From the NCBI GenBank assembly GCA_031213475.1, contig JARUPZ010000025.1:4446532-4510531 (forward strand): a DNA stretch of 64,000 nucleotides. The letters are read 5' to 3'. The notes beneath the pieces were generated by a model, which worked only from the letters and a program-made list of their open reading frames with translations, searched no databases and had not been told where the DNA came from. This DNA comes from Nereocystis luetkeana (Eukaryota > Sar > Phaeophyceae > Laminariales > Laminariaceae). Shown piece by piece: positions 5,263 through 63,945 of the stretch (the first letter of the stretch is position 1; every line of letters starts with the position of its first letter). The translations under genes were made by a program, and so were the position numbers.

Positions 5263-8200
5263 ATGAAGGGGTCTGTCGCCACCGCCGCCTTCCTCGGCCT
5301 TGTAACGATTCCTCTTGGACTAGGACGCAGAATTACCGATGAAGCCAACGACCGATTTGACTCGGTGAGTGCTCGAGGGCTTTTGCGCACGATATGTCAA
5401 GCGTGGGGCCAGTGCAGAAGGGGGTTCGAGGGATGTCTCACAGTCTGCCGCCGATGTCATCAATTTCGGTGTTTGCGTTATTGTATGGGAGGAAAGGGGC
5501 ACTCCCTGCGACCACCTTAGTTAACAGCCGTTTTTGTTCACACCAAGCATTTGTAGGCCGATCCCGATATTCGCCGTATGGTAAAACGTTCACTATACGA
5601 TGCCATGACGTATATGTACTTGTCGTGGCTTGCCTCCAAAGAAAGGGTCGCTCCCCACTGGAGGAGCTTCTATAACTCTCGCTCAAGCTGAACTTACGAT
5701 AAAACACATGGGCTCAACCCGACGAGAATTTTCACGACCTTAGTCTAAGCCTGGTATTTGTCAAGTAAGTGCTGACGAAACAAGATAGATATACGCCGGT
5801 AGGTGCTCAGTGCAATGATAGTGGTAGGACTAGTTGCCTCGCGTTTAATCTACTTGGCCGGGGTCCCTCGACACAGGAAGTATCCACTATCGCTGGATGA
5901 AGTATCGCATCGGTTTTGTGTTTCCACTTACTTTTGTTTCGATAGGTACCCAACACAGGCGATTGAGTTGGCATTTTTGTCTCGAGGATTAGATAGAGAG
6001 CTCCCAGAGCGAGTGGCCGTAGAAAAAAACAGAGGGGGCGCCTCTACTGTAGCGTACGCTTACTACCTTGCATGGGAATTATAGCGCAACACACGCGGGG
6101 TACCCGGTAACAAAAATTGCTCTTCTTGTCGGGGAGGGAGCTCCGTCGGACGAAAATGGTCCTCCCACAAAGTGTTTTGTGCCTCGAGCGTGGCACGGGT
6201 ATGATGTCGGGCCACAATCTATTACTGCTGAGTAACTCCAGTGTTCGGGTGTAACACCCTCGAGAATATATATATTCCGACCGCAAACGTATGACATCTA
6301 CAGGAGTACCTGGTGAAGCTCCCCTGATCTAGCGTGTGCTAAAAAGTTTTCGCTTAAGTGGGACACCTTTAGCGCCCAACGCGGCTTTCCTGAGCTAGCG
6401 TATGTTTAAACGTATTCGTTGAATGAAGCAGCGTCATCTTTTGTTAGCTTTCTGTAGGCGTGTCCAAGGGTTCAGGCGTTGTTGAGTATACGTTATAGAA
6501 GCCACGCTGTGACTGCGCCACACGTTGCGATCATGTGGTATGCACGGTGCGGCGGAAACTATTAATAGCATGTCCTCTAAACTCATTTTTGTGGTTTGAA
6601 ACACGATTGGCTAGGCGTAGTTAGTTATCGAAAGTCTGCTTTCTTCAGATGTCTTGAGTGCTTGCTCTGTACCAAACTTCTCCAATAATTGTTTCAATAC
6701 CCGGCGTTGGACCCACGTGAAAATGTGACCAGACCGCTCACGCGATTCGGTAGGTTCCTTTCGTAAGCATCTCGCACCTACGCACCACCCCAAGCACGTC
6801 CTTGAATATATGAGGTCGAGTGAAACCGCGACCACCCTGGGTATTCAAAACTGGTGAATCCCTTGCCACGTTCGTTTTAAGCTCCATTTGTTGGGGTCGC
6901 GACGCGGTTTCCAGGATACAGGCATGGGAAGTGCGGCTGCTGCTGCTGCCATCAAAAGCTGTTGGGGTAATCTGTCGGGAGGGTCTTAATTTCGTCACCC
7001 GTTGTTTCTTTTCCGCGTATTCCGTTGTGTCGCACAGCCCAAACAAAGAGCATCCAACGCGCGTCGCGAACGGAATAAGTGGGGGCGAATCGAATTCAGG
7101 GCATCTAAATCTAACTACCACGTCACCAACGGAGACGGATCCTCTGCAGCTTCGTTCCACAAGACTCTTCCGCACGACGAACTGGGGCAGGTACGACCAC
7201 CACCCAAAGGCTCAGTATGTCCTTTCCTACTTCAAAACACATTTAGCTTTGAGTTCACCCTTCTCCTGGACATACATACCAGCTCTATCTTATACCGATA
7301 TTTACTCTATCACATATGTGTTGTCCCATACATAGATGAGCAGTAAATGAAATGTATTCATAATCGCGGTAAATCGCGTGCGCCCAATAGTATGCCCATG
7401 TGGCATGTGCGTTAACCAATGATTACACTGAATGCTACTGCTTGGTTGACAGCGTGCGGCTGGACTGCAAAACGCTGGAATTATAAATAGACAGCATACA
7501 TACGCAGCTTTGTTGAAAAAGGCTTCGTTTCATTTTATTCGTGTACATTCGGTAGGACGGGAGCCCTTCTCTTAACACCCTACTCGTTTGTCCCCCCTAT
7601 CGTCATGGCGGTTGCACTCCAGGTCGATGCGGATGCCTACGACGCCTTGCTTGAGTGCGTGGGTGAGGGAGATATCGATAAGTGTGAGTCTGTGCCCTCC
7701 GGAGACGATGCTGGCTTCCTGGTCCAACCGGTTGGAGGCATCGCGGTCGAAAGCACCGGACCTGCAAGGTACATCCCTATATTGATGTCTGTATCAGCAA
7801 CGTTCACACTCGTTGTTGTTCGACGAGTCTCCCGAAGAGTATCAAGGAATGGAGGCATGAAGCTCCAACCTCTGAGACGGAGTTGGTTTCACAGGGGTAG
7901 CAAAATATATATGTACTAAGAGACCCTGGTGATGTGGGCACGAAAACTAGACAAACTACACATGAGTTACCCGTGTCGTGGTCGAGGTCCCTCTTATGTC
8001 GTTCCACAATTAATTGGTGAAGTGGCGAAAATACGACGACGCGCAAGCTTGAATCCGTCCGAACCATAGACTTTTTTTGCTTACCTCTATGTGGCCTTGC
8101 CGCACAACCCACACGCAAGCTCCGTCTGTGATCTCTCTGGCCCCTCTGATGCTCTCCCGTCCCGCCTGCCGCCACCGATCCTGCTTCGTGCATTTCCCTG

Positions 8201-11200
8201 CCTTGCAAAATCCATGTGCCTGGTGTTTATGACCCACCGCTGTCTGCTGGCTCCACCTATAGCTCGGCGTTGAGAACCCCTCCGGCAGCGGCGCTCGACT
8301 CGGAAGAACTGGTGAGTAGTCATGGGGGAATGTTCGTTCAAGTACCATGATCTTTCGGAGTATAGTCAAATCTCAAGGCGTGAGTTTGAGACCCTGGTCT
8401 CTAAGCGTTTGATGAGGTTTATCGCAATGAGACAGACTTCTGTATGCGCCGCTTCTTCGCCATGCCTAGCTGTGCCCACGTGTCCCATCTCTATAATATA
8501 TGACCTCAGCCTCGCGCGCGCTGTGTCCCGACGGGGCATGCTGGTGTTGAATGTTCTGTTATAATTCGGACGTATGTATGATACGACAATCTCCTTCGAA
8601 GGTCAACTTCTCGTTTGCTTTCGACGCCTCTTGAATACTCCTAGGCTGCTAACTTGGCGGAGGCGTACTGGATGTCCTTGACGAGGGACGTGCCTTTCTC
8701 CAAGTACGGCGTAGACGAGACTACGATCGCCGCATCAGGTAGACAATGCTGTGTATATATTTCAATTGTATTTCATGTTGAACGCGTTTGCGGTTCATTG
8801 TCGAAACAAACGCAAGGGTGTCTAGAATTCAGGGGGTACGACTTCGTCGATTTACCCGTTTAAGGACGAACAGGATGCGCAACTGTAACCTGGGTGTCAG
8901 CGAAATATGTATATATATGTATATTGTCCTACAATACTCCGCATTTAACCTTCCGTTAGTTCACGAGCGTGGTGGCTGCAACCCCTCTCCGCCAATAGAA
9001 GTACCCCCAAGTGCTGATAAAGGGGTATACCTAACGTATTCATTGTGTGAGCCTAAGCTCCTGCATAGAAACAACATGTGTGTATAAACGTGTTTGGTTA
9101 ACTCGCCATCTACGTTGGGACCAGACGTTGCAAGCGCTTACCCCGATTCCCCTCTTCTCTTCTTGGAACCGAGGTTGATGAATGACCGGAAATTTTCAAC
9201 TGTGCGTTGCATTGTCACAAGTAGGAAGGTATCTCCGCGCATCCGCCACACCCCTAACGTCCTAATTCGTCGCTGCCGAGGCCATTGCCTTCAAGTATTC
9301 CCGACGAGGCCTATGTAAGCCGACCCGCTCCGTGTTACCATACTAATCAAAACCGTGGAAACCCCCCTCCTCCGTTATTCGTGCCGTCAACAACTCAACA
9401 GAGAACTTGGCCACCATGCCGGGATTCGCGGAGATGAAGGGAGTGGCGGTCGGGCCGGATGGCAAGGCCGACCCTCAGCAACAGCTGTTCCGAAACTCCG
9501 CAATCGGTGCGGAGACGGGGCCCATGATTTCCCAGGTGCAGTGCAGGACGTCTCCCGTCAGTCGCAAATACATGTTGATACCTCTCAGCTACTTTTTCAT
9601 TGTACGTTTTGATTGTGAAGCCACTGCAGACTGCTATTCATTAGCCGCCCTCCGGCGTACTCGCCGACTACGTCCCTGATCTTTTTCCGTGTCATGAATG
9701 CCCTGTTTCTGTTTTGTTCTGACGTAAGTTTGTTTGCATTTTGTGTCCAGTTTGTGAAGTTTCGATATCATGGCCGATGCAGAAAACCATGGTTCAGCTC
9801 CTGCGTACCAGGTCAATACCGGCGCTGGCGCACGTATTCGTCGTTGAGGCGCTTTCACCCCTTATTGTATAGACATAATACTTATGTGTATACAATGGTA
9901 CTAGGTATTTGTTTGTGCTATGGTCTTGGTGATGAGCCGATGTTTAATGTATGACGAGCGCACTCCATTTACCTCTTACCAACCTCCTCCTTGCCTTGAA
10001 TGTTATGCCCCTGCGTTGCTTCCGCGCGAACCGAAGTTTCTGTTGAAGGACTTTACTCTAGACTCTATCACGGTGACGCCACAGCAGACTACCTTTGCGA
10101 CCGGATTCGACTACATGACCGACTACGACGAATGGCTCAACATTCAGGTTGGTGCCGTGCAGTGCGCATGCAAGGTTTGGGGAGGAACCTCCGATTAGTC
10201 TATATTTGTTGCTTGTGTTGCTGATTAGCAAATGATATCTGCAAGCTCAATAATCGTTTTTTCAAAACTGAGTGATGGTGTTTTTCTCCTTTGCTCCTCT
10301 GTGCAGAACGGCAAGGAACCATCCGTCGAGGCGGAGGTTGACCCGGTGAAGCGGTACGTCCGCAACTCCCGCGACCTTTCCAGGCTGGTTGAGAGCGACA
10401 CCATCTTCACGTGAGAATCTAAGCCAAACAGTACCTCCGTCGCTCTAGCAGTACAGTTGAAAGCTGCCCCCTTCAACCGGGGACATCGGTGTCTTGTTGC
10501 CTCGCTTGTACGTCAAACTAGCCTATCGAGGTTTCAATGGCGATTTATCTTGCCTGTCTGTGTCCGACGCTTGATTGAAAGAGAGGTGTTCCATCTTGGG
10601 CGGCTTGTGTAGAGTACACAGCAGGGTCTCGATATGATGTTCAGCGTGTTGTAGAAGGACGCTTTGAGGAGTATGTCAAACAGGAACGATATGGGGGTTA
10701 ATATAACACCTTGTGTTCGGGGTCGTGGTTTAGTTACGTTTGTTCAATTTCACGCGTCGGGAGTACAGTATGTGTTCGGCGGTTCACATTCATTCTTGCA
10801 CATCCCATTCTGTGCCTACCGTTTAGTAGTCTGAAACGTGAACTATGACCATGGGATCACGCGTTAACGCGTTGCAGGGAAGCGTTCCGGGCCTCGCTGA
10901 TCCTTTTCCAAGAAGTGGCTATCGATAAGAGGGGTTTCAACGGACCCTACACCGACAGCACACGCCAGACGGGCTTCGTCAGCTATGGTGCGTCCCACGT
11001 CATGAGGATTCTGGGAAGTGCCGAGGTAGCGCAGAGGTCCTCGTGGTACCACAAGTGGAACGTGCACATGTACGCTCGTCCGGAGGTGAGCATTATCTGC
11101 CAGATCAGCAACATATTCAATACAGTTGCATGAAGTCGACCGTCGTCTACAAAACCGGTCATTTGCCAAACACTCGTATGTTTGTGATGGTTCATTCTTG

Positions 11201-13775
11201 TTCTAAGCGATACATAGAAACGCGTTCTGCCCATTATGGCCTAAAATAGGATATCAGCCTCTACCATTGTCCATTTATCCGGCATTAGGTTTCTACAATA
11301 CCTTACCAAGCTTACTGGATCCACCTCTTCGACTCCCGATTGAATCGACCGCCTCCCCGTTTACTCTTTTGGCTATTGGTGAAACATTCCGCCAAACAGG
11401 CAGTCGCCGGGACCCTGCACAATGTCCTACGCGGCAAGCTCGACACGGAGTTCCACTCGTCCCTTCTTGGCAACACGGAGTTGCTAGAGAGGGTCGCGAC
11501 TAGGAATGCGGAGCTCAACGCCAACAGCGAGCGCACCTATATGTTGTCTCAGGTGACTACAGCTGAACAATGTGCAGCGAGCTGCTCATTTACGTTGCGA
11601 AAGCTTGATCGTCCGGGCTGGGTGTACCAGTCTATGCTACTACTGCAGAGTTCGCCGCGTCAAACAGCGATCCTCCTATTTTGTTTTCACATATCTTGTA
11701 TGTCCCGAACGTGCCTCATCGTGTCTGATTCGACGGAGACTAAAACGTAGGCAGCTCTTATCATTGTTGCAGGACGACATATGTCATCATCCAACACGCA
11801 AACGTGCTCGACTGGTGTTTGGAAGTAATGTGCTGGGCGGGCTTCTAACGACAGTTATTGCCGTACGTTCGTTGTTTGGCCCATATCCATCTGACAGGCG
11901 TCGACTAAGGGATCGCCAGCACACCCGGCCTACCCTGCTGGCCACGCCGTCCAGAACGGCGCTTTCGCAACGGTCCTCAAGGTGATACTGCCGTTCGTTA
12001 TCACTCCCACCACTATCGCCTTGATATACGTCGGCTGGGTAAAGTGACCATACCCCGCTCTGTGTTGGGCCAAAGAGGGCTTGGGGGCCGCGGGAACGGC
12101 CCAGACGTTACCCGGGTAGGAAGAGCGGTTGTGCCCCCAGCTACGTGACGCGCAATATGTCAACAACGCGGCTTGAATTTGCCATCGCTTTGCAACACGC
12201 TTCCAAACCCTATGCCAACGGCAGTATTTAGCCTATTATTGGCAGAATTATTGCCTAATGATGTCGCTCGTTTAGAGATGTTTCCACAGGTATACCCTTT
12301 TGTCATTGGCAGCGTATCGGGATGCGTCACCTTGTCTACCCGGGGGTATACACAGTTTTTTTTTAATGTTGCATACCGCAGGCCGTACTAGCACCACGCC
12401 TATATACTCATTTGGAAATAGTGGCTTGACAACTACTTTTACCTAACAATCGCTCACTGCAGGCTCTTGTCGGACTTGAGAGGGGCTCTGGCTGCTTCAA
12501 CGACCCCGTGTTCCCCGACGACGAAGGGTTGACCCTGCTTCCCTACAAAGGCTGCCTGACGTACGAGGGAGAACTCAACAAAATGGCCGGGAACATCGCG
12601 CTCGGCAGGTAGGTTCAGAAGAAATGGGAGCTCTGGGTCTGAGCAACCGCCCTGACCTATCCTGTCTAAGGAGCACCTATCGCCTTACGCATGGTACGGT
12701 AGAGCTGTTCCCTACCTGCTAGGTTCGGTGAGCCTGCCACATGCGATTGAAAGTACGAAAATACCGTTGGGGGCCGCTGAGTTGGCACCGAGGCCCGATC
12801 GGGTTGCGGTGCTCGGTTTCACGACGACAGTATGGCAGCTAAAACCAGAACTTGTATTTTCGGCAGGCTCTCTATCCCTCTCTCGACCAGATGTTTTCGG
12901 GGAATCGCCTCCTTTAGTGTGTTGGCAATCGTCCCGTCCTTGACAAAATCTACGACTGGAAAACGAGCGCGCTCCTGTGTGAACTTGTCACTCGTCAACC
13001 GTAAATGGTGGCACACGAATATGCCCAAACCATTGAATCGAGTCATCGACATCACCGTACTACACATGGTCATACACAATATGTGGTAAAATACAGAAAT
13101 GATCTATTGGTAGCACGTCAGTTGTTCAGGGGTATGAGGGGTATGAGGTTCGAAACCGATACGCTCGAAAACGCGCATCTCATCTACCGTAGCCGAACTC
13201 CCTAGTTTCCGCGCGATAGCCTACATACACCACACAATTTACACCACGAATATCACGCAAACAAAGGTGCCTCGTGCATCGTGGCAGCGGCAACACACAC
13301 ACTCATGAGTTTATGAATATTTTCCGACTCTGACAGGGGGATGGACGGCGTCCACTGGAGGTTCGACAGCGAAGAAGGGCTGATCCTCGGAGAAACCATC
13401 GGTGTGCGCATTCTCCAGCAGGTAACCACGCCCACACGAAATACATCACAGCAATAAGCAATTCGATATGCCACGAAGATTAAAGTTTGCGGACAAAGGG
13501 GATCGGCACGACGGCTTACAGGTAGTTCGCTATTTATTCACGAACTAAGATGCACAATCGTGATCCTGGCTCACAATTTTCCGAGTTGATCCGTACGTCT
13601 TCTGTTCTTGCATTGTGTTTTGTATCTGCAGGAGGTCTCGCAACTGCCGGAGGGCGAGGCATACGAGTTCCGCCTCATGTCAGGCGAAGTCATCAGGCTC
13701 GAACAGGACGGGTCTCACTACCTGGATGACAAGAAATGCGACGGGGACTCTTACATGGGGGTCGACTACTGCTAA
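5263..13775 (+). CDS. Vanadium-dependent haloperoxidase (brown-algal type), copy 1, 14 exons
   Basis: Family role: oxidation of a halide by H2O2 to hypohalous acid on a vanadate cofactor, in the apoplast or cell wall. Exons: 5263-5364, 7038-7190, 7623-7768, 8263-8311, 8645-8738, 9402-9535, 10037-10147, 10307-10410, 10878-11085, 11400-11552, 11898-11981, 12463-12608, 13337-13421, 13632-13775. All introns are GT-AG, phases join without error, and the total is 1713 nt (570 aa plus TAA). Residues 1-20 form a signal peptide (MKGS start, hydrophobic core). Vanadate pocket: K357-x7-R365 in KWNVHMYAR, H427, PAYPAGH with G433 and H434, and R495-x5-H501. These sit a constant 15-16 residues after the equivalents in Ascophyllum bromoperoxidase. 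Ala432 replaces the usual Ser. The C-terminus (EFRL, SGEVIRL, final GVDYC) is also typical of the brown-algal enzymes. Exon 2's acceptor (7037) is the least certain boundary. Whether bromide or iodide is preferred cannot be read from sequence. Confidence 0.93.
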
Positions 13776-24706: not shown

Positions 24707-25092
24707 TTAGCAATAGTCGACACCCCTGAAGGAGTCTCCGCCGCATTGTTTGTCGTCCAGGTAGTGAGAGCCGTCCTGCTCAAGCCTGATGACTTCGCCT
24801 GACATGAGGCGGAACTCGTATGCTTCGCCCTCAGGCAGTTGCGACACTTCCTGCGAACGAAAATACGTTGAAAAATATTTACCAATGGGGGTCGGATAAA
24901 ATGAGCACTGGGTATTTTCTGGCAGTGCCAGTCTCACACTAACTTGTCCCGTCGTATCTGTGAACTTGATGTGCAAACGTCGTGTATGCATAGTGGTAGC
25001 AGAGGACCCGCCGACAAGAGGCAAGCAAATGTTCGGAAGCCCTCCGATCATTCTGCAACAATGTCCTTGTTCCACCTTAAGCATAGTATCAC

Positions 25093-25125
<33 letters not shown>

Positions 25126-25171
25126 CAGCAGCAGCAGTAGTAGTAGTAGTAGTAGTAGTAGTAGCAGCAGC

Positions 25172-25223
<52 letters not shown>

Positions 25224-25253
25224 TTGTAGTAGTAGTAGTAATAGTAGTAGTAT

Positions 25254-25313
<60 letters not shown>

Positions 25314-28300
25314 CAGTAGTAGTAGCAGTAGTACCAGCAGTAGTAGTAGTGGTAGTAGCAGCAGCAGCAGTAGTAGTAGTAGTAGTAGTAGTAGGAGGAG
25401 TAGTAGGAGTAGTGGTAGTAGGAGGAGGAGCAGTTAGTAGTAGTAGTAGTAGTAGTCGTAGTAGGTATATAGAACTAGCAGTAGCAGTAGCAGAGCAGTA
25501 GCAGCAGTAATAGCTGTATCAGCAGTGTCAATCGGAGCAAGAGTAGCAGATAAAGGCATCTCACGAGCCACAATTGTATCCAAGAGTACGGTGTGCTTGT
25601 ATTCACCTGCTGCAAAATGCGCACTCCGATGGTCTCTCCTAGGATCAGCCCTTCTTCGCTGTCAAACCTCCAGTGGACGCCGTCCATTCCCCTGGCAGAG
25701 ACGGAACACGTTCGGGAGACATAGAGAGCGCGTTGCCGGGGCACATTCCGCGCCGTCTCGTGCTTGGTGGAGCATGCGTAGTGGCTGCAGCCCTCTACCA
25801 GCCGGGTTATGGTAGAGGTTGAGCGCTTGCGAGTCAGCACTTGTCTCTCGACTGGACTCCCCAACAAATTTGCTACCTGATATCGTCAAAGCCTACGTGC
25901 ACCCAACAATATTGTGCACACTAAATGTGTACCGATGATGCTGAACCCAACCTCGGGGCACACACAGGAACAGGTCTCCATCACCACGCAGGGCGTTTGG
26001 CCACGGTGGGCACTGTTGGGGGAGGGTACTCCGTCCTGGTAGGTCGGGCGGCCGGAGGTTGAGGCGACAGGCCATCCAATATATCATCCGGCCCGCTTAC
26101 TGTAGCTTACCATTCTATGAACAGACGCTTGGCCCAACACGACGCGCCTACTATTTTATGTATGTACTGACCTGCCGAGCGCGATATTCCCGGCCATCTT
26201 GTTGAGCTCTCCCTCGTACGTCAGGCACCCGTCGTAGGGCAGAAGGGCCAGCCCTTCGTCGTCGGGGAAGACGGGGTCATTGAAACAGTCGGAGCCTCGC
26301 TCCAGTCCGACAAGAGCCTGCGGGTGTGTAGTTGTTTGTGAGTTATATATTTGCGACTTAAGTAAAGGGAACGGGTGTTTATGCATAGTGCGAGTACGGT
26401 CTGCAAAACCAATCCCGAACATTAATGTTTGTGTCCCGGGGCAGATGAGGTAACCCGTCTTGCTATAATATGGCCGCCAAGTCTACCAACTCGCACACCT
26501 ACGAACGAACGCGAAGGATGTTGGCGATCGCATACGAGTCGCCCGGACACTCCTGTCGGACGTGGGGTTGGGAATATTTCTGGATCATTCGTAAGATTAG
26601 GCCACGCGTTTTACGTGCGGGGCATGGGCTACCTGTAGATGTTACATGAATGGCACGTACTCATCCGCCACCTGGGGCTACATGAAAGGCCCGTCCTTTA
26701 GCCTGCCTCCCTCTCTTGTTGCCGAACATACAGGGAACCATCTATGGTACGTGGCCGAGAGGATGTTGACAATGGTGACAACCTACGATACAAATTACTC
26801 ACCTTGAGCACCGTTGCGAAGGCCCCGTTCTGGACGGCGTGGCCAGCGGGGTAGGACGGGTGCGCTGGCGATCCGTTGGTCGATGCCTGTCACGTCGAGC
26901 ACCAAGAACAAGATGGTGGTACAGCTGTCGTAAGAAACTCGCCGGCGGCAGGATAATTATTACTGTCGTCTGCATTCTGCCTGATCTAGTTCGCGCAACT
27001 TGTATGGAACCAATAAATGTCGGAACATGTTCACGTTTCTCTCAATGTTTCGGACCTCGAAAGCTTCAATGGATTGACGCGAACCCCTGTTCTACGAGAG
27101 GACCACGACATTCTATTGTTCCACCAAAAGACCTGAAACACATATGATACAGAAGGAGCTCGCACATAGTAAGAGCGCGCCAGAGGACACGACCCCTGCC
27201 CGATACGGTGATGCATGTGCTAGCACAGAGCCAGTGTCGTTTCCGAGCACTGGAACATCACGGAAGGAGGGCGCGACAGTATCTATCCAGTATGTTCGAC
27301 ACCCACCACTACACGGAGCTACGTGTCCTGGGCAAGCGTTGGCAACGTTGAGCAGACGCGCGCTGCACACTGTGCAGCTGTACTTAAATTCACCTGGGAC
27401 AACATGTACGTGCGCTCGCCGTTTGCATTCAGCTCTGCATTTCTCGTCGCCACCCTCTCCAGCAATTCCGTGTTTTCAAGGAGGGACGAGTGGAATTCGG
27501 TGCCGAGCTTGCCGAGTAGGACATTGTGTAGGGTCCCGGCGACGGCCTGCTCCGTGGTCATTTCCACCGACACCACACGGATTTCATACGAGACGGGCTA
27601 TTCAGCCGGGAGCAAATCGTGGCTCCAATTATTATCTTGCAAACGAAAGTTGCCCAACAGAAATCCGGGCACAGAGAGAATTGTATTGACCGGTATCCTG
27701 CGTCGCACGGGACAAAATCGTCGACGTTGTGAAACGTGGAATTAACGCAAACCTCCATAGGCAGACTGGTTGATTGCCATTAACGGCTGGGGCTGACCAT
27801 CATTCAAGCGCCTACGCCCTTCGGCGTTTTCGAACCCCACCTACGCTAACTAGCGAGCCCTCACCTCCGGACGAGCGTACATGTGCACGTTCCACTTGTG
27901 GTACCACGAGGACCTCTGAGCCACCTCGGCACTTCCCAGAATCCTCATGACGTGGGACGCGCCGTAACTGACGAAGCCCTTCTGGCGGGTGCTGTCCGTG
28001 TAGGGGCCGTTAAACCCCCTTTTATCAATAGCCACCTCCTGGAAAAGGATCAAGGAGGCCCGGAACGCTTCCCTGCGAGGCGTTTCACGTGTTTGTCGTA
28101 TCTTATGACATGATCCGTGTTTTCACGTACTGTAGGCGACTAACGGGCTATAGTGAGATAGGCGCCGAACACTATGCGTCGCGCACATCCTTCCCCACGC
28201 GTGTATGTATGCGACGATCTCGGGTTGACAAATGGGGAGAAACGCATCACACGCTACGCATTGTGTAACCCCCCGTCTCGTTCCGGAGTGTGGAAAACCA

Positions 28301-31300
28301 ATTCTAGACATTGTCCCAACCTAACGTCTTACGTGAAAATTGTGTCGCTCTCTACCAGCCTGGAAAGGTCGCGGGAGTTGCGGACGTAGCGCTTCACCGG
28401 GTCCACCTCCGCTTCCACGGAAGGATTGGCACCATTCTGAGGAGAACAAAATCGGAGGCAAAGCTTTAGTCAGCTGGGAAATGGACAGAGAGTTTGCTGA
28501 TCGAATAAGGCATATTCGGCCGCACTAACATCGGCCCTTCCCATGCAGACTCCACACTACCAACTCCACCGAGTGACAAACAGCAGTCTTTCGTTCTCTT
28601 TTCATCACGACTGGTGGTTCGTTCGTTGTGCACCAACCTGAATGTTAAGCCACTCGTCGTAGTCGGTCATGTAGTCAAACCCGGTCGCGAAGGTAGTCTG
28701 CCGAGGCGTGACCGTGATAAGAGTCGAGAGTGAAGTCTTTCAAAAGAAACTGGGGTTTTGTACGTCATAAACGCCGGGGGGTCGGGGGGGGGGGGGGGGG
28801 GGGGATGGGAGGTTCATGGCGTGAGCAAAAACACAGAAAGAAACACACCGTACGCTGCCATTATGTCGCAGCTAAAGCTTCATTCCCGATCGCCAGATAG
28901 AAATGAACGGTTACGACAACGACAGAACCGATACCACCACAACCGGTGGTTTCAAGATATGCAGTATCTGAACAAACTAGCTTTCATTTCTCGCGCGTGG
29001 ATTAGAACGCCACAAACTTGAAACCCTCGCGTACTCAAGCCAACGACCGCGACACAGTCCCATGAATGACAGAGGACAGGGTCAATATCACGCCCCGCGA
29101 GGATGGTGGAGGCCGGTTACAGTGCAACTGACATATTCGGCCCCAAGCGAAGCGAATGAGAGCACAGAACACACTACTATTTGACTTGGCGGGAGGCTTT
29201 GCTGCACCTGGGAGATCAATGGCCCCGTCTCAGCACCGATGGCGATATTCCGGAAGAGCTGAGACTGTGGGTCGGCCTTGCCTTCCCCATCGACTGCCAC
29301 CCCGTTCATCGTCGCGAAACCCGGCATGGCGGCCAAGTTCTCTGTCCGTCATTGCACGTCATCACCAAGCGGGGGGTTTTGCACAATGTTGGTGAACAAG
29401 TCGGCAGGAGTGGTGGGTCGGACGATATTCCGTGAATGTTCATCGAGAGGTCGTAGTGTAGATAGTCTCGAATACACGGGTAACCCGAGGAAGAGCTGAC
29501 GTTTTCGCGGCCTGTTGTGTAGTCGGAAAGTAAGAAGCTGTTGCAACATCTGCAACATAATCCCAAACTCAACCAAGACAAGTACGCACCTGACGCGGCG
29601 ATGGTCGTCTCGTGCTCGCCGTACTTGGAGAAAGGCACGTCCCTCGTCAAGGACATCCAGTACGCCTCCGCCATGTTGGCAGCCTACGCATGCCCAAAGG
29701 GTCGGGGGGAGAACGGAGAGCGTCAATGAGCGTGTGCCGTACGAGATGGTAACAGAAGGTCTGGTCTCTGGACAAGAACGGAAGCCATCATTCAGCTCAG
29801 TCGCAAACAGGCCAGACCTCGCGTTTCGAGCACAACACACTTCAACATCGATGGACGTGCACGTCACCCTCTTCGTGACTCACCAGTTCCGTTGGGTTGA
29901 GCGCCGCCGCAGGAGGGGTGACTAGAGCCGAGCTATGGTTTGAAGCCAGCACGTTGCGGCGAGCGATGTAACACCAGGCCAAGAGAAAATCAAATGTCGA
30001 ACCGATGCACGGGTTGCAAGGAACGACAATGAACAAAGCAAGATCGGTGGGGGTGTAAGGGTTAAGGGGAGAAATTCATAGGGGGAGACGCAGCCGGGTG
30101 GAGCGTTTATGGGCTGTGTGGCAAGAATATCGATTTTTCATCGAGACGAAGTAAAGCTTGCGTACCGAATAGTTCAACACCGACGGAATGGCGGACGAGG
30201 AAACGCCAGGGGTCCTTACACATGACATGCCGGGTGTATAAGTATATACGAAAGGGTACTGCTCTGGGCATGCATGTACTTGGTACATGCACTGCTTTCC
30301 AGTTTCTGGTGCTCTATTCCAAAAAATTACAGGTACGTGCACGGTGCAGGGACAGCCTGAGCCTGGCGAATTCCCATCAGTTTTCTGTCCGAAGGCCGCC
30401 AAGGGTCGCGTCGTCCACGCTTGTTCTGTCTCCGGCAAGGCATGGCCGTACATTAGGGCGGGGGTCCCGTGGCCATATCTCTGATATAGACCTCCACCGA
30501 CCGTCTTATGAACATGAACGCACGAGTGGTAAGCATCGCCAGGGAATCATTCCGTACCTGGCGGGTCCGGTGCTTTCGACGGCAATGCCTCCAATGGGTT
30601 GAACCAAGTAACCAGCATCGTCTCCGGCGGGCACGGACTCGCATTTGTCTAAGGTACCTTCGCCGACGCACGCCAACAGGGTGGCATACGCGCTCGGGTC
30701 CACCTGGCACGAAACCGGTTCAACAACGGCGGGAACTGAAAAACATATCTGGAGGGGGGGGGGAGAAGACGAGGCCTCGCTCCTGCCCGGATGATCTTGA
30801 ATGACTAAACCGAAAGAAAGAAGTACAACTACGAATCGTATCGAGGATGAAGGCATTGAAACCGTTCGGGTTTTATTGTGATGCGTGATACACGCAAGCG
30901 CCTGCATCTGCCGCAAACCGCAAACTTCAAACGCAAGTCGTACCGACACGGGGGATATAGTCCCGTCCTGTAGGTAATAGTTTGAAGACGGGTATTACCA
31001 CCGGAGTAGTGCTATGTATTGGCGCTACGGGTACACACAGCTCAGAATCGATCGAAAGCGACACCCATGGAAGAAACATCCCGGCGCACACTCATTCCTT
31101 GTTCCTTGCCCTACAGGCGCGCATAGTCGCCGCAGTCGACAGCAACTACAAAAAAAAAACTAGCGGTGGCTAACGTCTCTCTCGCTTTGGGGTTCAAATA
31201 TTATACGATTTTAGTGTTTGTTTGAGTGAATGATATACAGACCCTAGGGTAGTTGTTGCAGTCGTGGTCATACCTATCCCAGGTCGTCGTGCGGTAGAGT

Positions 31301-31903
31301 CTTGTGGAAGGTAGCGGCAGAAGAGCTGTCTCCAGTAGTCACGTGATACATGGGTGTCGACGCCCTGAACTCGATGTTTCCTCACTCTCGCCGATGGCCA
31401 AGCACGTTGAACGCCCTTTCTTTTGCCTTTGCACCACGAGCCAACAGGTGCGAGAGCAGTCGGAACGAAAAATGCGATTTACGTGGAGCTTCGATACTAC
31501 AGCACCAGTACTAAATGTTTTCAGCGGTCGCACCCACGCCTGACCCTGTGGTACCGCGAGTCGCCAAAAGCGATCGACGAAGCTTAACCCACCGCGAGAA
31601 ACCGATATGTCTTGAACGGCGGAAAGGTGGGGCGTGACCCCGACATTTGACCCCAGGAACAACGCATGACAGGGCCGTTTCGTCATATTGACTAGCGTAT
31701 GACACGTAGAAGGCCTTGCATTGTGAAGTTTGATACAGGCGCAGACTCCGACACGTTCCCCTAGCCACCTTCTTACATACGTAGGGGGTCTTAGTACTCA
31801 CTGAGGCATAGAGGTCGTTGGCTTCGTCGGTCGGTGTGTGCCCGTGGGCGGCAGGAAGCGTTACAAGGCCCAACAGGGCGGCAGTGGCAACAGATCCTTT
31901 CAT
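24707..31903 (-). pseudogene. Vanadium-dependent haloperoxidase copy 2, disrupted
   Basis: Paralogue of the gene at 5263-13775 in opposite orientation. Exons in transcript order: 31802-31903, 31274-31426, 30558-30703, 29884-29932, 29590-29683, 29208-29341, 28638-28749, 28333-28436, 27865-28072, 27394-27546, 26803-26886, 26172-26317, 25607-25691, 24707-24850. Thirteen exons match copy 1 in length and phase; exon 7 is 112 instead of 111 nt. Lesions: in-frame TGA at 31382-31384; TAG as the last codon of exon 2 (31274-31276, CAG in copy 1); and one extra base near 28719-28720 that shifts the frame into a TGA at 28675-28677. All splice sites remain GT-AG. The pocket motifs KWNVHMYAR, PSYPAGH and R-GMDGV-H are intact, as is the signal peptide MKGSVATAALLGLVTLPAAHG. 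Most differences from copy 1 that I compared are synonymous, so the damage looks recent. Assembly error or a damaged allele is the alternative. Intron 13 holds a long AGT microsatellite. Confidence 0.88.
25090..25465. repeat. (AGT)n/(AGC)n microsatellite inside a haloperoxidase intron
   Basis: About 375 bases of AGT triplets with AGC, GTT and AGG variants, lying within intron 13 (24851-25606) of haloperoxidase copy 2. It creates artificial poly-Ser and poly-Val frames that should not be called genes. Copy 1 lacks it. Confidence 0.95.
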
Positions 31904-34617: not shown

Positions 34618-35185
34618 GCCAACTTGCATGCCATCGTCTGCGTTCGAACCTATAGTAGCATCGCTTCTGACAAGAAAATGTTTGGGCTGAGTACATACAC
34701 AGGCGAGTGAGTGCGCGTGGTTCTTGTGGTTCTCGTTGTGTGGTACGAGCTTTTACGAGGGTATCCTATACCTTTAACCCATCCAAGCAGTACCTTGCGG
34801 GAGCGAAGATATTGGTGAACAGCGCCGAACTTAACGCGAGATTCCACTACGCAAACGTTTCCGGAGGGGAGGGGGGTCGTGGCGCCATCGAACGCGTGTT
34901 CGCTGCTCCTGCCATGTAATCCAACTCGATCATCCTTCCAACCTCCATCATGAGTGCACCTATCCCTGTTTGCCGCAACGATTTGAAAGTAGCGGATTTT
35001 CTGTTTAGGCTGTACAACAGGTTTCTTCCTGTCCTAGGCTTAAGGGCCAACTACTCGCCAGGTACCAACAGGTTCGGTCTACGGCAGTATCTAATACAAA
35101 GATGGTATTGTGTACGTACGTACAATGTACCACGAGAGGCGCCGGGGGTGCACATCGACTCCAGAGGGCATGGGCATGCTTCGGA

Positions 35186-35893
35186 CGGTATAAGATGGAA
35201 ATTTATGACCGCCCGGGTGTGCGCCTACGCCTGAAGGTGCGAATGCTGAGAGCCGAGGTGATCGAAACGTTGCTCTACGGTTGCGTTGCTTGGAGCCCGA
35301 GCAAGACTGATTACGGTAGGCTACGGGAGTTCCACCACAAGATGCTCCTCCGATGCATCGGGTGGCGAAAACGAAAGCGCGAAGACCACATTCTATCCTA
35401 TGCTAGCGCGCTTCTCAGGACAACATCTGAAAGCGTTGAGACGACGGTACGCAGACGTAGGCTCTTGTTTGCGGGCTTTGTGACACGAATGGGAGAGGAG
35501 CGTTTGCCGAAGAGGGTGATGTTTGGGGAGATGGTTGGGGGTAAGGGTTACTCCGGAGGACCGGAGTGGGACTGGATGAGGTACCTTGAGGAGGACCTCA
35601 AGGAGTTCGGCATCAAGCTCGAAGGGTGGCGCGAGGCAGCACAGAAAGCCGGCAGATGGTTCCGACGGGTCGAGGAAGGGGCGGAGGCCTTCATGCGGAA
35701 ATGGCATACAGATGAGAAGGAGGCATCGGCAGAACGGCATAGAATAGCTGCAACCACGACCACAGCCGTTGACGCCAACGCGAGTGTGCAGAATGGCAGG
35801 GAAGAGGGGGGGGGCGAAAGGGGGACGCGGGGGGGGGAGGGGAGGCGGTCTGCCCAACAGACTGAAGCCTGGTTATGGCCATCATCGTCATGA
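35186..35893 (+). pseudogene. LINE ORF2 C-terminal fragment
   Basis: Open for about 235 codons. It holds the region downstream of the RT palm: YGCVAWSPSKTDYGRL, RRRRLLFAGFVTRMGEERLP, and W-x-R-rich GRWFRRVEEGAEAFMRKWH. It lacks the RT catalytic core and an obvious own start, so no working protein is expected. It differs by only a few residues from the copy on the minus strand at 39677-40303. Confidence 0.8.
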
Positions 35894-36302
35894 TGCACTC
35901 CTTTCTTTGGGACCCAAGTAACTAGCATGGTGCCATCTGGGCAACTTTGCGTGTCTGTATGCTCCAGTGCCTGCCTTTGGTATTTTCTTTCCCCCCCGCC
36001 CGTGATTATCGCTTTTTTGTCCCTTCTTTTTTTTTCTTTTTTTTTCATTTTTCTTTCATTCCCGTTTGTATCTCTTTGTGTCTTTGTTAGTATGGTCCGT
36101 TTTTGCCTTTTTTTGCGTTTTGCCATCTGCGTCTGTTTTAGTTTTGATTTAGTTTTTCTTTTGCTTAGGCCAAGTATTATGGGAAATTTTTGAGACGTTA
36201 TTTCTGGCTTTTTCAGCGATCTCCGAAGCCCAAAAATCAGAACCATCTATTATGGGACAGGAAATCATCGATATTTTTGATCTCAGTTCCTGGAGGGGGC
36301 AA

Positions 36303-37971: not shown

Positions 37972-38934
37972 CCACAGGCCACACTACGGCACAGTCTATT
38001 GCGCCGGTAGGAGGCTGGATTCGACGACGAGGGAGGAGGGAGACTGAGCGTCGACGTGCGGGGAAGAGACGGATTGACCTCCCCCTGCGCGAGAATTTTT
38101 ATTTCCCAGATCAGAACCGCAAGTGCGAGGAGCATTTTGTTTTTCAGGATGACGGAGAAAGGGAAACGACTGGAAGGGAATGGCAACGAGTGCACGCGCA
38201 AAGGAGCGGGTGGATTGGGCCAAGGCGATGATGCGGCCATGAAGAGCGGCAGGAAGACGGTGCATGGAGACCCATGATTTGCGCGCACACTATCATCACG
38301 AGAGAAGCAGTCATAGTTTGTTTTTTCCTGGTTTTGTTTTTCACGAGGCAGAATAGTATCTACCGGTACTCGTCACTGGTTTTTGTAGTTTAACGAGTTG
38401 TATACCCTTCATGGGGAATAACCTACGCAATTATCAGGGACGTGGTATCATAACTGTGCTGCACCTTTTTGTGTCAGACAGTCCAGGAAGAGATGGCGAT
38501 CGTTGATATTCGTGTGGCAGTAAGGTTCGATTGCTCCTTTTTTCACTGCATATCCGCGAGTCTTCACTCTGACAGCACTCCAGATAGCAGGCAGGTGTGT
38601 TCCTCTTTCGTTTTCACGACTACCGTGCGTTTCGTACGGTGCAGGCAGCACTTCAGACAGCATCCGCTGTAGTCAGCAGCCACGAGTTGGTTAGTGGTGG
38701 GAACGGGGGTACTCTATGTTATAGTTGAGAGGATATACCCGCGGCCATGTTAGTTCAGTTTTGCACATTGGTTTTATCTTGTGTGCGCTTTTTCCGTCTC
38801 GTGTATTTTGAGGCAGCCGAATTTTCGTTTTTTCTTGTTTTTCGGATCTTCCTAGGGCTCCAGCACCTTTGTGTGACCACGGGCTCCTTCGTCAGAGAGT
38901 TAATGTGAGAACAACAACAACAACAACAACAACA
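37972..38934 (+). mobile_element. Non-coding retroelement with LINE-like 3' tail, copy D
   Basis: About 960 bases ending GAGAGTTAATGTGAGAACAAC(AAC)n. A nearly identical inverted copy lies at 59836-60820, and a shorter one at 42120-42515 (minus). All share the same 3' end but have different 5' limits. The last ~60 bases resemble the LINE A/B/C tail ('accacgg', 'gttaatgtgagaacaac'). No reverse transcriptase is encoded, so it is probably mobilised by the LINE. Confidence 0.7.
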
Positions 38935-39188: not shown

Positions 39189-40303
39189 TTGTTGTTGTTG
39201 TTGTTGTTCCTACATTAACTCACAATTCAATGCAGTCCGTGGTCGCAGGACAGGCTCCAATAACTCTGGAGTGGAAGAAATACCTCAAGTAAAAACAGAG
39301 GCAAAAAAACAAAAAACAAGCATACGCACTCCACCACTGCGGACACCAGGGAAGCAAAAAGGAGACTATTATTAGCAGACAAAAACCTTAAAAAAGAAGA
39401 TGAAGCTAAGCAAAAGAAAAACAAAAACAAAACTAAAACAGACGCAAATGGCAAAACGCAAAAAAAAAAAAAAAGGCAAAACGGGCCATACTAACAAAGA
39501 CACAAAGAGGTACAAACGGGAATGAAACAAAAATGAAAAAAAAGAAGGGACAAAAAAGCGATAATCACGGGCGGGGGGGAAAGAAAATACCAAAGGCAGG
39601 CACTGGAGCATACAGACACGCAAAGTTGCCCAGATGGCACCATGCTAGTTACTTGGGTCCCAAAGAAAGGAGTGCATCATGACGATGATGGCCATAACCA
39701 GGCTTCAGTCTGTTGGGCAGACCGCCTCCCCTCCCCCCCCCCCGCGTCCCCCTTTCGCCCCCCCCCCTCTTCCCTGCCATTCTGCACACTCGCGTTGGCG
39801 TCAACGGCTGTGGTCGTGGTTGCAGCTATTCTATGCCGTTCTGCCGATGCCTCCTTCTCATCTGTATGCCATTTCCGCATGAAGGCCTCCGCCCCTTCCT
39901 CGACCCGTCGGAACCATCTGCCGGCTTTCTGTGCTGCCTCGCGCCACCCTTCGAGCTTGATGCCGAACTCCTTGAGGTCCTCCTCAAGGTACCTCATCCA
40001 GTCCCACTCCTGTCCTCCGGAGTAACCCTTACCCCCAACCATCTCCCCAAACATCACCCTCTTCGGCAGACGCTCCTCTCCCATTCGTGTCACAAAGCCC
40101 GCAAACAAGAGCCTACGTCTGCGTACCGTCGTCTCAACGCTTTCAGATGTTGTCCTGAGAAGCGCGCTAGCATAGGATAGAATGTGGTCTTCGCGCTTTC
40201 GTTTTCGCCACCCGATGCATCGGAGGAGCATCTTGTGGTGGACCTCCCGTAGCCTACCGTAATCAGTCTTGCTCGGGCTCCAAGTAACGCAACCGTAGAG
40301 CAT
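39189..40303 (-). mobile_element. 5'-truncated LINE (copy B)
   Basis: Reverse-orientation relative of LINE A. It begins at 40303 within the LLYGC block and encodes about 208 codons nearly identical to copy A (A/T, F/V and P/Q changes, plus a reshuffled Gly/Arg tail). The 3' UTR is uninterrupted, including AGCTTCATCTTC, and ends in (AAC)n, seen as (GTT)n at 39190-39208. High identity to copy A implies recent transposition. Confidence 0.85.
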
Positions 40304-42119: not shown

Positions 42120-42515
42120 TTGTTGTTGTTGTTGTTCTCACATTAACTCTCTGACGAAGGAGTCCGTGGTCACACAAAAATGCTGGAGCCCTAGGAAGAT
42201 CCGAAAAAAAAAAAAAAAAAACGAAAATTCGTCTGCCTCAAAATACACGAGACGGAAAAAGCGCACACAAGATAAAACCAATGTGCAAAACTGAACTAAC
42301 ATGGCCGCGGGTATATCCTCTCAACTATAATATAGAAGAGTACCCCCGTTCCCACCACTAACCAACTCGTGGCTGCTGACTACAGCGGATGCTGTCTGAA
42401 GTGCTGCCTGCACCGTACGAAACGCACGGTAGTCGTGAAAACGAAAGAGGAACACACCTGCCTGCTATCTGGAGTGCTGTCAGAGTGAATACTCGCGGAT
42501 ATGCAGTGAAAAAAG
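42120..42515 (-). mobile_element. Non-coding retroelement with LINE-like 3' tail, copy E (5'-truncated)
   Basis: Read on the minus strand it ends in (AAC)n at 42121 and matches the last ~400 bases of copy D (37972-38934). It stops abruptly at ~42515, as expected for incomplete reverse transcription. Confidence 0.75.
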
Positions 42516-42592
42516 GATATATTTCGTGTTAGGCATTGGAATAAATGACACGTATCACGTATGAATATATACGTACAGAATTACAGGTTGGG

Positions 42593-52491: not shown

Positions 52492-52598
52492 GCTGCAGAG
52501 TTCAAGTAGTGGGTGTGTCTGTCTATATTTGCGATGTTAAATCGAATATAAGGGTCATTCTTAGGGTCATTCTTATCGGAGAGCTTTTTACATTCTTA

Positions 52599-53117
52599 GG
52601 CCACTTCTTATGCAGTCGGATTTGCAGTCAGTTGGAAATAAATGGTGCTATCGGCACGTTCGCACGAGCTTTTGTCCCAAAAATGTGCGAAACTAACTAC
52701 TGTTTCTTGCCTCAGAATGCCTTGGACTTTTCTCGAAGACCTAACTACTGCTGTTTTCCGCTTCTTCTCCAGGTGCCCAGTTAGTTGCAGGAAATCCCCT
52801 CCGGTACTTTTCCGATTCAACTGGATCAAATACGATTACAACCCCCGATTGGATCGGAAAAAACTTTTTCCGATCCGATCCCAGATCGTAATCGTATTTG
52901 ACTCAGTTGGATCGGAAAAGTACCGAAGGTGATTTCCTGCAACAACTGGGCGCATGGAGAAGTGGGAAACAGCTCTAGATAGGTCTTGGAGAAAAGTCCA
53001 AGTCATTACGAGGCGAGAAACAGTAGTTTCGCACAATTTCGGGGCAAAAGCTCGTGCGAACGTGCTGACCGCACCATTTCCAACTGACTGCCAATCTGAC
53101 TGCATTAAGAGGTGGCC
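52599..53117. mobile_element. Long inverted-repeat (foldback) element, PIF/Harbinger-like
   Basis: 519 bases forming one large imperfect inverted repeat with arms of about 255 bases around the centre 'aaaaaactttttccgatc' (~52863). Ends are GGCCACTTCTTA and TAAGAGGTGGCC. TTA is duplicated on both sides (52596-52598, 53118-53120). No transposase. End sequence and duplication match the Harbinger-like element at 36168-37039, although the interiors are unrelated. Confidence 0.82.
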
Positions 53118-53448
53118 TTATGGGAGAGTTTTTTTTCCAAATTTAATGCTCGCCTTTTTTTCGCGCAATTTTTCAATCTTTCATATTTTCCTGTTTTTTT
53201 TTCCAAATAAATAGTGGAATGTGACCGAACTTGATATTTTTGGTTGGAGAATTTCACGAATGGGGACAGAACGCCTCCGTATATTGATACATATCTTATC
53301 TCCAAACTTTGGAAATTAATTATGGAAAAAACGCTCTCCGATGAGAATGAACCTAAAACGGCAAGGCAAAACCCGTAGTGTGGGGGGAAGGCAGAAGAGC
53401 CTGCCTGGTGACTCCGGATGAGATAGACCACTACCAGGTATATAATAA

Positions 53449-59835: not shown

Positions 59836-60820
59836 GTTGTTGTTGTTGTTGTTCTCACATTAACTCTCTGACGAAGGAGTCCGTGGTCACACAAAGGTGC
59901 TGGAGCCCTAGGAAGATCCGAAAAACCAAAAAAAAAGTCGAAAATTCGGCTGCCTCAAAATACACGAGACGAAAAAAGAGCACACAAGATAAAACCAATG
60001 TGCAAAACTGAACTAACATCGCCGCGGGTATATCCTCTCAACTATAACATAGAAGAGTACCCCCGTTCCCACCACTAACCAACTCGTGGCTGCTGACTAC
60101 AGCGGATGCTGTCTGCAAGTGCTGCCTGCACCGTACGAAACGCACGGTAGTCGTGAAAACGAAAGAGGAACACACCTGCCTGCTATCTGGGGTGCTGTCA
60201 GAGTGAAGACTCGCGGATATGCAGTCAAAAAAGGTGCAATCGAACCTTACTACCACACGAATATCAACGATCGCCATAATCTCTTCCTGTAATGTCTGAC
60301 ACAAAAAAGTGCAGCACAGTAGTTATGATCCCACGTCCCTGATAATTGCGTAGGTTATTCCCCATGAAGGGTATACAACTCGTTAAACTACAAAGACCAG
60401 CAGTGACGACGTTTATAACAAGTACCGGTAGATACTATTCTGCCTCGTGAAAAACAATACCAGGAAAAAACAACCTATGACTGCTTCTCTCGTGATGATA
60501 GTGTGCGCGCAGATCATGGGTCTCCATGCACCGTCTTCCTGCCGCTCTTCATGGCCGCCTCATCGCCTTGGCCCAATCCACCCGCTCCTTTGCGCGTGCA
60601 CTCGTTGCCATTCCCTTCCAGTCGTTTCCCTTCCTCCGTCATCCTGAAAAACAAAATGCTCCTCGCACTTGCGGTTCTGATCTGGAAAATAAAAATTCTC
60701 GCGCAGGGGGAGGTCAATCCGTCTCTTCCCCGCACGTCGACGCTCAGTCTCCCTCCTCCCTCGTCGTCGAATCCAGCCTCCTACCGGCGCAATAGACTGT
60801 GCCGTAGTGTGGCCTGTGGT
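59836..60820 (-). mobile_element. Non-coding retroelement with LINE-like 3' tail, copy F
   Basis: Inverted, nearly identical counterpart of copy D (37972-38934), with its (AAC)n tail at 59836 on the minus strand. Open frames in it mirror those of copy D and show no family resemblance. Confidence 0.75.
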
Positions 60821-61974: not shown

Positions 61975-63852
61975 GAAGGCAGTCTTACACACCAGTCATT
62001 TAGCCTCTAATAGTATGACAGGTACCTGGTATGTCTTTTGTGTTCATTTTGCAGGAACAAAATAAGGACGAAGATAGACTTCACAGCTTCAGCGCCATGT
62101 AAAAAGGATGTGCTGCAACACGTAGTCCGAATGTGTGGGATATTATATATCGATATATATATATGTCCATCCTTGGAAAAACCTGTTTTTGAACATACAT
62201 ACCTACCGAAAACTGTTTTGAAAGAATGCCACGAAAAACTGTGAGCAACATGTATGTAGAAAGACCAGGAAGCAAAATGATTTTCAACTCGTCGCCTCGT
62301 TCAAAATGCACTACTACTACCGTCCGGGGGGGTTTTGAGGGGCTTCTTATTTTTGCAATCGGCAGTAAGTACCCTCATCATCTACTCTGCTACTACTGTT
62401 GTACTGCACAACAATGTACTGCTGTAGTGTATCTGTGTCGTAGGTAGTTTCGTCGCCCCAGGGCTTGTACCTCGCTCCACACATAATAAATGAACGAGAC
62501 GAAACTCCCACACATTGTGAGATGAAATCAATGTATGTGCTAAACTATACCTGGTACTTAACATGGCCGCGGATTCAAGAATCGGCACGGACGCTGTTTG
62601 CGCCAGATGTCGACCGGTAAGAAGAACGGTTTAATAATAGATAGTGTGAATGAACTACCCAAGACAGCAGCAGTGTCGCACAAAAAGAAAGGGCTTCTTG
62701 GTACAGTTCCCCTGCGTGTCTTCCATTACTTTTAAGGTTGCCATCCGACAATTTGCAGCATGAGCTTCGACGTTGATCACTCAAAACATTCCTGAAAGAA
62801 GAAATCCCCGGAAACAAGGGACACTTACTAACTGTATGCACAATGTCTATCTACATTGTACGTCTGCTTCCCTCTGCCTTGTCTACGATTTTTTATGTGT
62901 TGCCGTTGGTCCCTTCTACCTCATCTCATTTTTAAGCCGCATCTATTAAGCCGCATCTAAGCTCCATCCCCACTCCACCGGTGTGGGTCTGTCATTCCCA
63001 CATACATGTCAAAACTCATGTCGGTCGAAAATCTTGTTTTTTTTCTATCTAAAGAACTTAGTGCTATTATTATTAGTAGTAGACCTTTAGTCAGCGTTGT
63101 GTTGTTGCGTTCTCGCCCGTACTCATCAGTCATCGCCGAAAATACCTGGTTGTCACAAGACAGGCGCCTGCCAACTCTGAAGTGGGAGAATGCAAAAGGA
63201 AATTATGAAAACGAAACCCGATGATAATAAATAAGAAGGCCCCAAGTAGTAATTCGTACCAGGTACTCATATAAATACCTATACGAGTACAGTCCAGGAA
63301 CTGGAGCGGATCGTAAACCTTCGCGAAAAAAACATAACAAGAGTAAAATCGGTCAGAAGTAGGGAGTGAAAAGAGAGAGGTAGGGAAGGACAACAGTACG
63401 TGCCAGAGATCAGCCGGATTGACTGCGCACAAACGAGTGCGGAGTCTCTCCTGACCTCAATTGCACTCCTTAGTTTGATGGTTCACCCGATGGTCAGACA
63501 TACAGGTATACACCATTCCATCATATTTCTTATATGGCCGTAAGCGAAACGGTCGCATGCGCCCCCGGTCACGCGAACAACACCATGTTCCCCAAGACTC
63601 GGCTGTTTGTACACCTTCCGTCATTCATTGCGTCAGTCAGGGTATTGTGCACGCCGATACCACGAGCTATGCGTCATTCGTCCGCTATTATGAGTGTCGA
63701 CAATGCTTCTCACGAGAAGCAAGCGCGCACACTCACATGCAAGCCTTGATGACCGAACCAGTGCGTGCACCTCGTGCGTACCTCGTCCACGTTTCTGATC
63801 GTATGATAGCATCAAACAAGGGCTTCCGGTCAGGACGACATCAATTTTCCGG
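61975..63852. other. 5' flank of haloperoxidase copy 3
   Basis: Holds a copy of the 75-bp dispersed repeat (62580-62654) and several TACCAGGT/ACCTGGTA words. No gene recognised. The sequence just upstream of the start codon at 63853 shows no obvious match to the other two copies. Confidence 0.4.
62580..62654 (+). repeat. Dispersed 75-bp repeat, copy 4
   Basis: 'atcggcacggacgctgtttg', 'gatgtcgaccggtaagaaga' and 'tagtgtgaatgaac' match the family at 20976. Confidence 0.6.
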
Positions 63853-63945
63853 ATGAAGGGGTCCATCGCCATTGCCGCCCTACTAGGCGTTTCGCCTGCG
63901 GTTTACGGTCAGCAGACGGACGAAGCTAACGATCGCTTTGACTCG
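63853..63945 (+). CDS. Vanadium-dependent haloperoxidase copy 3, first exon only
   Basis: Thirty-one codons read MKGSIAIAALLGVSPAVYG followed by QQTDEANDRFDS, then a GTGAGA donor at 63946. Start, hydrophobic signal peptide, the TDEANDRFDS block and the phase-0 donor match exon 1 of the haloperoxidase genes at 5263 and 31903; this copy is three codons shorter. The rest lies beyond the window, so whether it is intact is unknown. It is in the same orientation as copy 1. Confidence 0.82.

Follow-up and report, generated by a model that had tools for sequence, protein, structure and literature searches.

A 64,000-nucleotide stretch of the genome of the kelp Nereocystis luetkeana (the window; bases 4446532-4510531 of contig C25 in a 465-Mb assembly) carries three related genes, here called copies 1, 2 and 3, that resemble vanadium haloperoxidases. 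The locus raises the question of what these genes encode, whether they form a small local group or part of something larger, and whether all of them are still alive. Our analyses of the window and of the DNA flanking it strongly suggest that they are brown-algal vanadium haloperoxidases in an array that grows by segmental duplication and loses members, copy 2 being a pseudogene of recent origin.

The family assignment is carried by copy 1. In a phmmer comparison, its residues 25-570 aligned with a bromoperoxidase of Ascophyllum nodosum (PDB 1qi9; E 4.8e-190), the closest solved structure, which we take to be isoform I of that alga; bromoperoxidase 2 of A. nodosum (PDB 5aa6) gave an E value of 4e-120. 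No brown alga other than Ascophyllum was represented among the PDB matches. Over exons 9-11, copy 1 is identical to 1qi9 at 87 of 148 positions and to 5aa6 at 64 of 145, whereas one gene each from contigs C22 and C11 is identical to 5aa6 at 54 of 83 positions and to 1qi9 at 41 of 85. As copy 1 is nearer 1qi9 and the C22 and C11 genes are nearer 5aa6, both types seem to be present in the genome, the window representing the first; 5aa6 belongs to the same family as the window genes, but it is the C22 and C11 genes that resemble it. Counted from the phmmer alignment, copy 1 retains the residues aligned to K341, R349, H411, G417, H418, R480 and H486 of 1qi9, whose roles at the vanadate site we presume to be those of the vanadate ligand histidine and the acid-base histidine with their accompanying Lys, Arg, Gly and Arg. 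The codon for Arg480 is split across the exon 12/13 junction. The exon 9 Lys and Arg are present in all 44 of the C25, C4 and C17 genes read, the C22 and C11 rows ending ahead of the Arg; for the His and Arg encoded by exons 12-13, the reading covered the window copies and one further set of loci. The gene itself is intact, all 13 introns running from GT to AG, and its hydrophobic N-terminus is a putative signal peptide. Thus, three claims of the original prediction hold: the haloperoxidase identity, the full 14-exon gene, and an MKGS leader and TDEAN block common to the copies, both of which are found in copies 1, 2 and 3. The acceptor of copy 1 exon 7 (10034-10036) reads AAG, against CAG in G3 and G4, two neighboring haloperoxidase genes on C25 just upstream of copy 1; this is perhaps a weaker splice site in an otherwise intact gene.

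The window holds only a small part of the family. A genome-wide search with exon 9 of copy 1 gave at least 91 matches, of which 46 lie on C25 within 4.20-5.81 Mb (1.6 Mb), 4 on C4 and 1 on C17; the remaining 40 are weaker (13 on C22, 12 on C11, and 15 on small contigs, where copies may be alternative haplotypes). Exon 11 likewise has at least 95 matches (47 on C25, 4 on C4, 1 on C17 and 43 elsewhere). The genes and strands of the predicted local cluster of three in +, -, + arrangement are therefore as described, whereas the number three is an effect of the window edge: the three genes are part of a cluster more than 1 Mb wide. Copy 3, correctly called from its first exon at the end of the window, was followed downstream and has 13 further exons reaching C25:4520546, giving an open frame of 1704 nt (567 residues). 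The original prediction named a copy 3 without downstream exons as a result that would refute it, and this was not the case. Its exon 1 is three codons shorter than that of copies 1 and 2, and the donor of its exon 3 is GC. Two further members of the family stand out. At C4:4165563-4165769 (L063), an exon-9 match lies within a 322-residue open frame, the longest among the exon-9 matches, perhaps through intron loss. In L039 (C25:5114985-5116213), which lies in the Ser416 block, the frame of exon 11 departs past HAVQNG, and this gene is perhaps a second broken copy.

Divergence among the copies points to more than one round of duplication. Full gene models were available for G4 and copies 1-3, and G3 was modeled for exons 1-10. 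Synonymous divergence (dS) and the ratio of nonsynonymous to synonymous divergence (dN/dS) were calculated by the Nei-Gojobori method with exons 1 and 7 excluded, the copy 1-G3 pair being compared over exons 2-6 and 8-10. They were 0.63 and 0.12 for copies 1 and 2, 0.57 and 0.195 for copies 1 and 3, 0.47 and 0.18 for copies 2 and 3, and 0.06 and 0.057 for copy 1 and G4; dS between copy 1 and G3 was also 0.06. Copy 1 is thus a member of a young triplet with G3 and G4, while copies 1, 2 and 3 separated earlier, so that the suggestion of a duplication that is not very recent fits copies 1 and 2 but not copy 1 itself. Self-comparison found copy 1 within segments nearly identical to those bearing G3 and G4 (Table 1); the G3 match stops at the end of the DNA fetched, so its length is a minimum. 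As judged by selection (dN/dS for copies 1 and 3 and for copy 1 and G4), copies 1 and 3 are probably functional. A tree of exons 9-11 from the genome's own copies and the two A. nodosum enzymes (147 columns; 5 of 32 inner branches starred, 13 open) places copies 1-3 in a branch of eight with 100/100 support, together with four C25 genes (4361767, 4384417, 4417309 and 4435955) and one C17 gene.

We consider it possible, although not probable, that gene conversion or recombination among copies acted alongside duplication. Copy 2 changes its affinity along its length: sites shared exclusively with copy 3 outnumber those shared exclusively with copy 1 in exons 2-6 (68 versus 32), and the reverse holds in exons 7-14 (56 versus 82; Fisher 4e-5 for the best among 11 cuts; maximal statistic reached in 6 of 5000 permutations). 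Copy 2 may reasonably be taken to have been shaped by exchange between copies. However, the evidence is a single test on three copies with exon 1 excluded, unequal rates between copies may contribute to the signal, and exchange of this kind would supplement duplication rather than replace it.

The last question, whether all members are alive, turns on copy 2. This gene keeps 14 exons, as had been noted, and its exon lengths equal those of copy 1 throughout except in exon 7 (112 versus 111 nt), in line with the predicted difference of a single base. Every acceptor ends in AG and every donor begins with GT. The introns differ as described: their lengths are not those of copy 1, and a blastn comparison of the loci gave little alignment outside the exons. 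The reading frame is broken by two stops in exon 2 and a frameshift in exon 7; at the stop sites TGA and TAG, copy 1, copy 3 and G4 carry TGG (Trp) and CAG (Gln), respectively. A long-dead gene is expected to gather about three nonsynonymous changes for each synonymous change. Relaxed constraint of this kind was not seen on copy 2's own branch, which carries 45.5 synonymous and 10.5 nonsynonymous changes besides the two stops; such a ratio suggests that copy 2 was under selection until late and hence that its inactivation was recent. Copy 2 is therefore best regarded as a probable pseudogene of recent origin, which would yield no enzyme product. Its intron 13 contains a long trinucleotide-like array (window positions ~24940-25520) with poly-Ser/Thr/Val/Leu open reading frames (ORFs) in several frames, and similar arrays occur near 36.6 and 37.3 kb.

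Table 1. Positions in the window of the haloperoxidase copies, selected exons and duplicated segments
Feature	Position	Strand	Basis or remark
Copy 1, vanadium haloperoxidase gene, 14 exons, 570 residues	5263-13775	+	open frame of 1713 nt; all 13 introns GT..AG
Copy 1 exon 1, MKGS hydrophobic leader and TDEAN block	5263-5364	+	exon model
Copy 1 exon 9, vanadate-site Lys and Arg, HKWNVHMYARPE (K341/R349 of 1qi9)	10878-11085	+	alignment to 1qi9
Copy 1 exon 11, HPAYPAGHA; H411, G417 and H418 retained, Ser416 replaced by Ala	11898-11981	+	alignment to 1qi9; motif reading
Copy 1 exon 13, GRGMDGVHWRFD region with vanadate ligand His486	13337-13421	+	exon model; alignment to 1qi9
Copy 1 exon 14 (last coding exon)	13632-13775	+	exon model
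Copy 2, disrupted 14-exon gene	31903-24707	-	first exon 31903-31802, last exon 24850-24707
Copy 2 exon 2 with TGA (31384-31382) and TAG (31276-31274)	31274-31426	-	comparison with copy 1, copy 3 and G4
Copy 2 exon 7, 112 nt, one surplus base near 28719, frameshift	28638-28749	-	comparison with partner exons
Copy 2 exon 11, HPSYPAGHA, Ala at 416	26803-26886	-	motif reading
Copy 3 exon 1, 93 nt	63853-63945	+	exon model; exons 2-14 beyond the window at C25:4511028-4520546
Segment 96.6% identical, introns included, to an inverted copy at C25:4426463-4416537 (gene G3)	1915-11854	+	self-comparison; covers copy 1 and upstream flank
Segment 95.4% identical to C25:4429743-4437894 (gene G4)	4639-12824	+	self-comparison

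The window genes differ from 1qi9, an enzyme of another brown alga that copy 1 otherwise matches over residues 25-570 and in the remaining vanadate-site residues, at a single residue of that site: Ser416 is Ala in copies 1, 2 and 3. Site 416 was read in all 52 exon-11 matches on C25, C17 and C4: 17 encode Ala and 35 encode Ser. The C25 matches with Ala (13) are found at 4.20, 4.36-4.62 and 5.59-5.81 Mb, those with Ser (34) at 4.31-4.33 and 4.76-5.48 Mb. Among the 43 exon-11 matches on other contigs, the 11 read (32 were left unread) comprise 10 with Ser (in L088-L090 from the peptide only) and one without the motif (L091). The Ser codon is TCN in 34 of 34 C25 Ser matches and AGY in all 7 C22 and C11 matches with the codon printed. 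Ten prokaryotic relatives with a readable motif carry Ala (6), Gly (2) or Ser (2), a ratio biased by the use of one Ala-bearing query; they are L095 (the same place as L097), L096 and L100 (same letters, counted once), L098, L099, L102-L106, and L107 and L108 (counted once), L101 (motif absent) and one G002 match being left out. Such relatives were detected in 5 genomes out of 398 and 3 out of 392, counting those of the query itself. As 6 of the 10 prokaryotic genes read share Ala416, a restriction of this residue to kelp was rejected. Site 416 thus appears to be naturally variable. The tree of exons 9-11 requires at least two Ser/Ala changes, with the position of 1qi9 unsure (long branch). 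Because the five Ala416 genes compared (G3, G4 and copies 1-3) are constrained, they are not simply decaying. Within the Ser blocks, C25:4799616-4884810 and 4906416-5007314 contain Ser416 copies evenly spaced at ~17 kb and ~20 kb with near-identical exons, which may reflect tandem amplification in the very recent past or arise from the assembly. For the fungal enzyme, a Ser402Ala mutant has reportedly been studied. In the portions available of the literature searched, which included PMC11871015, PMC10427571, PMC2866472 and PMC10278073, no statement was found on Ala at site 416 in brown algae; an earlier report of this active-site variant was thus neither found nor excluded.

Losing the Ser416 hydrogen bond might weaken peroxovanadate as an oxidant and so suit an iodide enzyme. 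A bolder version, which we regard as unlikely, is that Ser416 is a natural switch: an old Ala416 class, with a weakened hydrogen-bond network, would be tuned to iodide, and the near-identical block at 4.76-5.36 Mb would have regained Ser by one base (GCN to TCN) and been amplified, raising oxidizing power. If this were true, a single codon would disclose the halide specificity of a gene, and the two states would lie adjacent in one array.

The expansion and clustering of kelp haloperoxidases has already been published, and the window genes add members. In Saccharina japonica, 88 vanadium haloperoxidase genes have been described, with tandem duplications (58 on LG3, 13 on LG4 and 9 on LG21) and transposable elements around them (PMC11765636), and an earlier annotation listed 59 vanadium iodoperoxidases (vIPO) and 17 vanadium bromoperoxidases (vBPO) (PMC4421812); these clusters are like the window genes in being expanded, clustered and tandemly duplicated. 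Supplements aside, the words "serine," "alanine," "active site," "pseudogene," "residue" and "motif" are absent from the main text of PMC11765636, and "pseudogene" is absent from the available text of PMC4421812. In Saccharina latissima, a large cluster is named vBPO, mass spectrometry having identified several of its members in an active fraction, and only two sequences are named vIPO (PMC13198595). That study, which dates from 2026 and covers other algae besides S. latissima, also reports the motif-2 His to be substituted in its group 2 and describes the residues setting halide choice as largely unknown. Iodide-specific haloperoxidases, paralogues of bromoperoxidases, are cited for Laminaria digitata (PMC4421812). 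The birth-and-death family proposed in the original prediction agrees with this record (PMC11765636, PMC4421812), with the 46 C25 matches, with a triplet at dS 0.06 beside older copies at dS 0.47-0.63, and with a fresh disruption. The window branch may weakly be read as iodide-using.

Several points weigh against our interpretation. A Pfam-A search of the 570-residue copy 1 returned no family, so the haloperoxidase assignment rests on the PDB homologues, and PF01569 (PAP2 superfamily) gave a single exon-sized match over the whole genome, on C27, in a search that is insensitive because the exons are short. The published family signature is PxYxSGHA (PMC9144378), and the window copies read PxYxAGHA, one residue off; with 17 Ala in the 52 exon-11 matches and Ala or Gly in 8 of the 10 prokaryotic genes, we consider the signature too restrictive in its published form. 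The stops and the insertion of copy 2 were read from the assembly sequence, and 65 codons on its branch could not be polarized. The conflict between the vIPO-rich S. japonica and the large vBPO cluster of S. latissima leaves the iodide preference weak.

These points bear on three alternatives. That copy 2 is intact and its three lesions are sequencing or assembly errors is very unlikely: its low nonsynonymous load would fit such errors, but two of the lesions are transitions creating stops (TGG to TGA, CAG to TAG), the insertion lies outside any long homopolymer, and all 46 exon-9 matches on C25 are without an internal stop. Even more doubtful is the notion that the Ala416 genes have ceased to be haloperoxidases and encode phosphatases or another kind of protein with this fold. 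The active sites of vanadium haloperoxidases and bacterial acid phosphatases are described as very close (PMC9144378), and the vanadate-contacting signature Ser is replaced by Ala in 17 of the 52 exon-11 matches on C25, C17 and C4, but copy 1 keeps the other vanadate residues, dN/dS is low in the five Ala genes compared, and prokaryotic relatives with Ala or Gly retain the remaining HPxYPxGH block. Hardly credible, finally, is a living copy 2 that skips exons 2 and 7 to make a shorter product from an open frame. In its favor, the lesions are confined to these two exons, of 153 nt (exon 2, both stops) and, in the partners of copy 2, 111 nt (exon 7, the insertion); both start and end in phase 0, as among inner exons only 2, 7, 10 and 11 do (501 of 1713 nt), all splice sites are canonical and constraint is strong. 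However, exon 7 encodes part of the core aligned to 1qi9 and exon 2 the conserved FHK.LPHD block, an enzyme is unlikely to survive the loss of ~88 residues, and for only three lesions chance by length alone is ~1 in 40.

We therefore return to vanadium haloperoxidases in a growing and shrinking array, for which the following course of events can be proposed. Copies 1 and 3 would be secreted proteins in which the conserved His binds vanadate and which use hydrogen peroxide to oxidize a halide, iodide being the likeliest and bromide a further possibility. The array would grow by segmental duplication in both orientations, the duplicated stretches here being 8-10 kb or more in length and 95-97% identical, and its members would be lost by mutation, copy 2 recently.

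Other features of the window are repeats. An inverted repeat (35271-36168 and 39406-40302) has arms of ~0.9 kb that are 96.4% identical and 3.2 kb apart, and looks like copies of a mobile element; a 294-residue ORF at 35009-35893 had no Pfam match. A dispersed family (37972-38927, 59836-60819 and 42120-42517) occurs in both orientations, and its 95-96% identity suggests recent movement within the array. An imperfect palindrome of ~520 bases at 52598-53118 is 82.8% identical to its own reverse complement. A Pfam search of ten long ORFs of the window found no family; a FAM27 match in a repeat ORF was below its cut-off and was set aside.

The Laminariaceae show the highest iodine accumulations known, and haloperoxidases are given a key part in them in PMC13198595. 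Because the array described here brings together many natural, putative enzymes with different residues at a vanadate-contacting position, halide choice could be studied within a single genome, using natural Ser/Ala pairs besides laboratory mutants. Copy 2 may in turn represent a gene copy caught soon after its loss.

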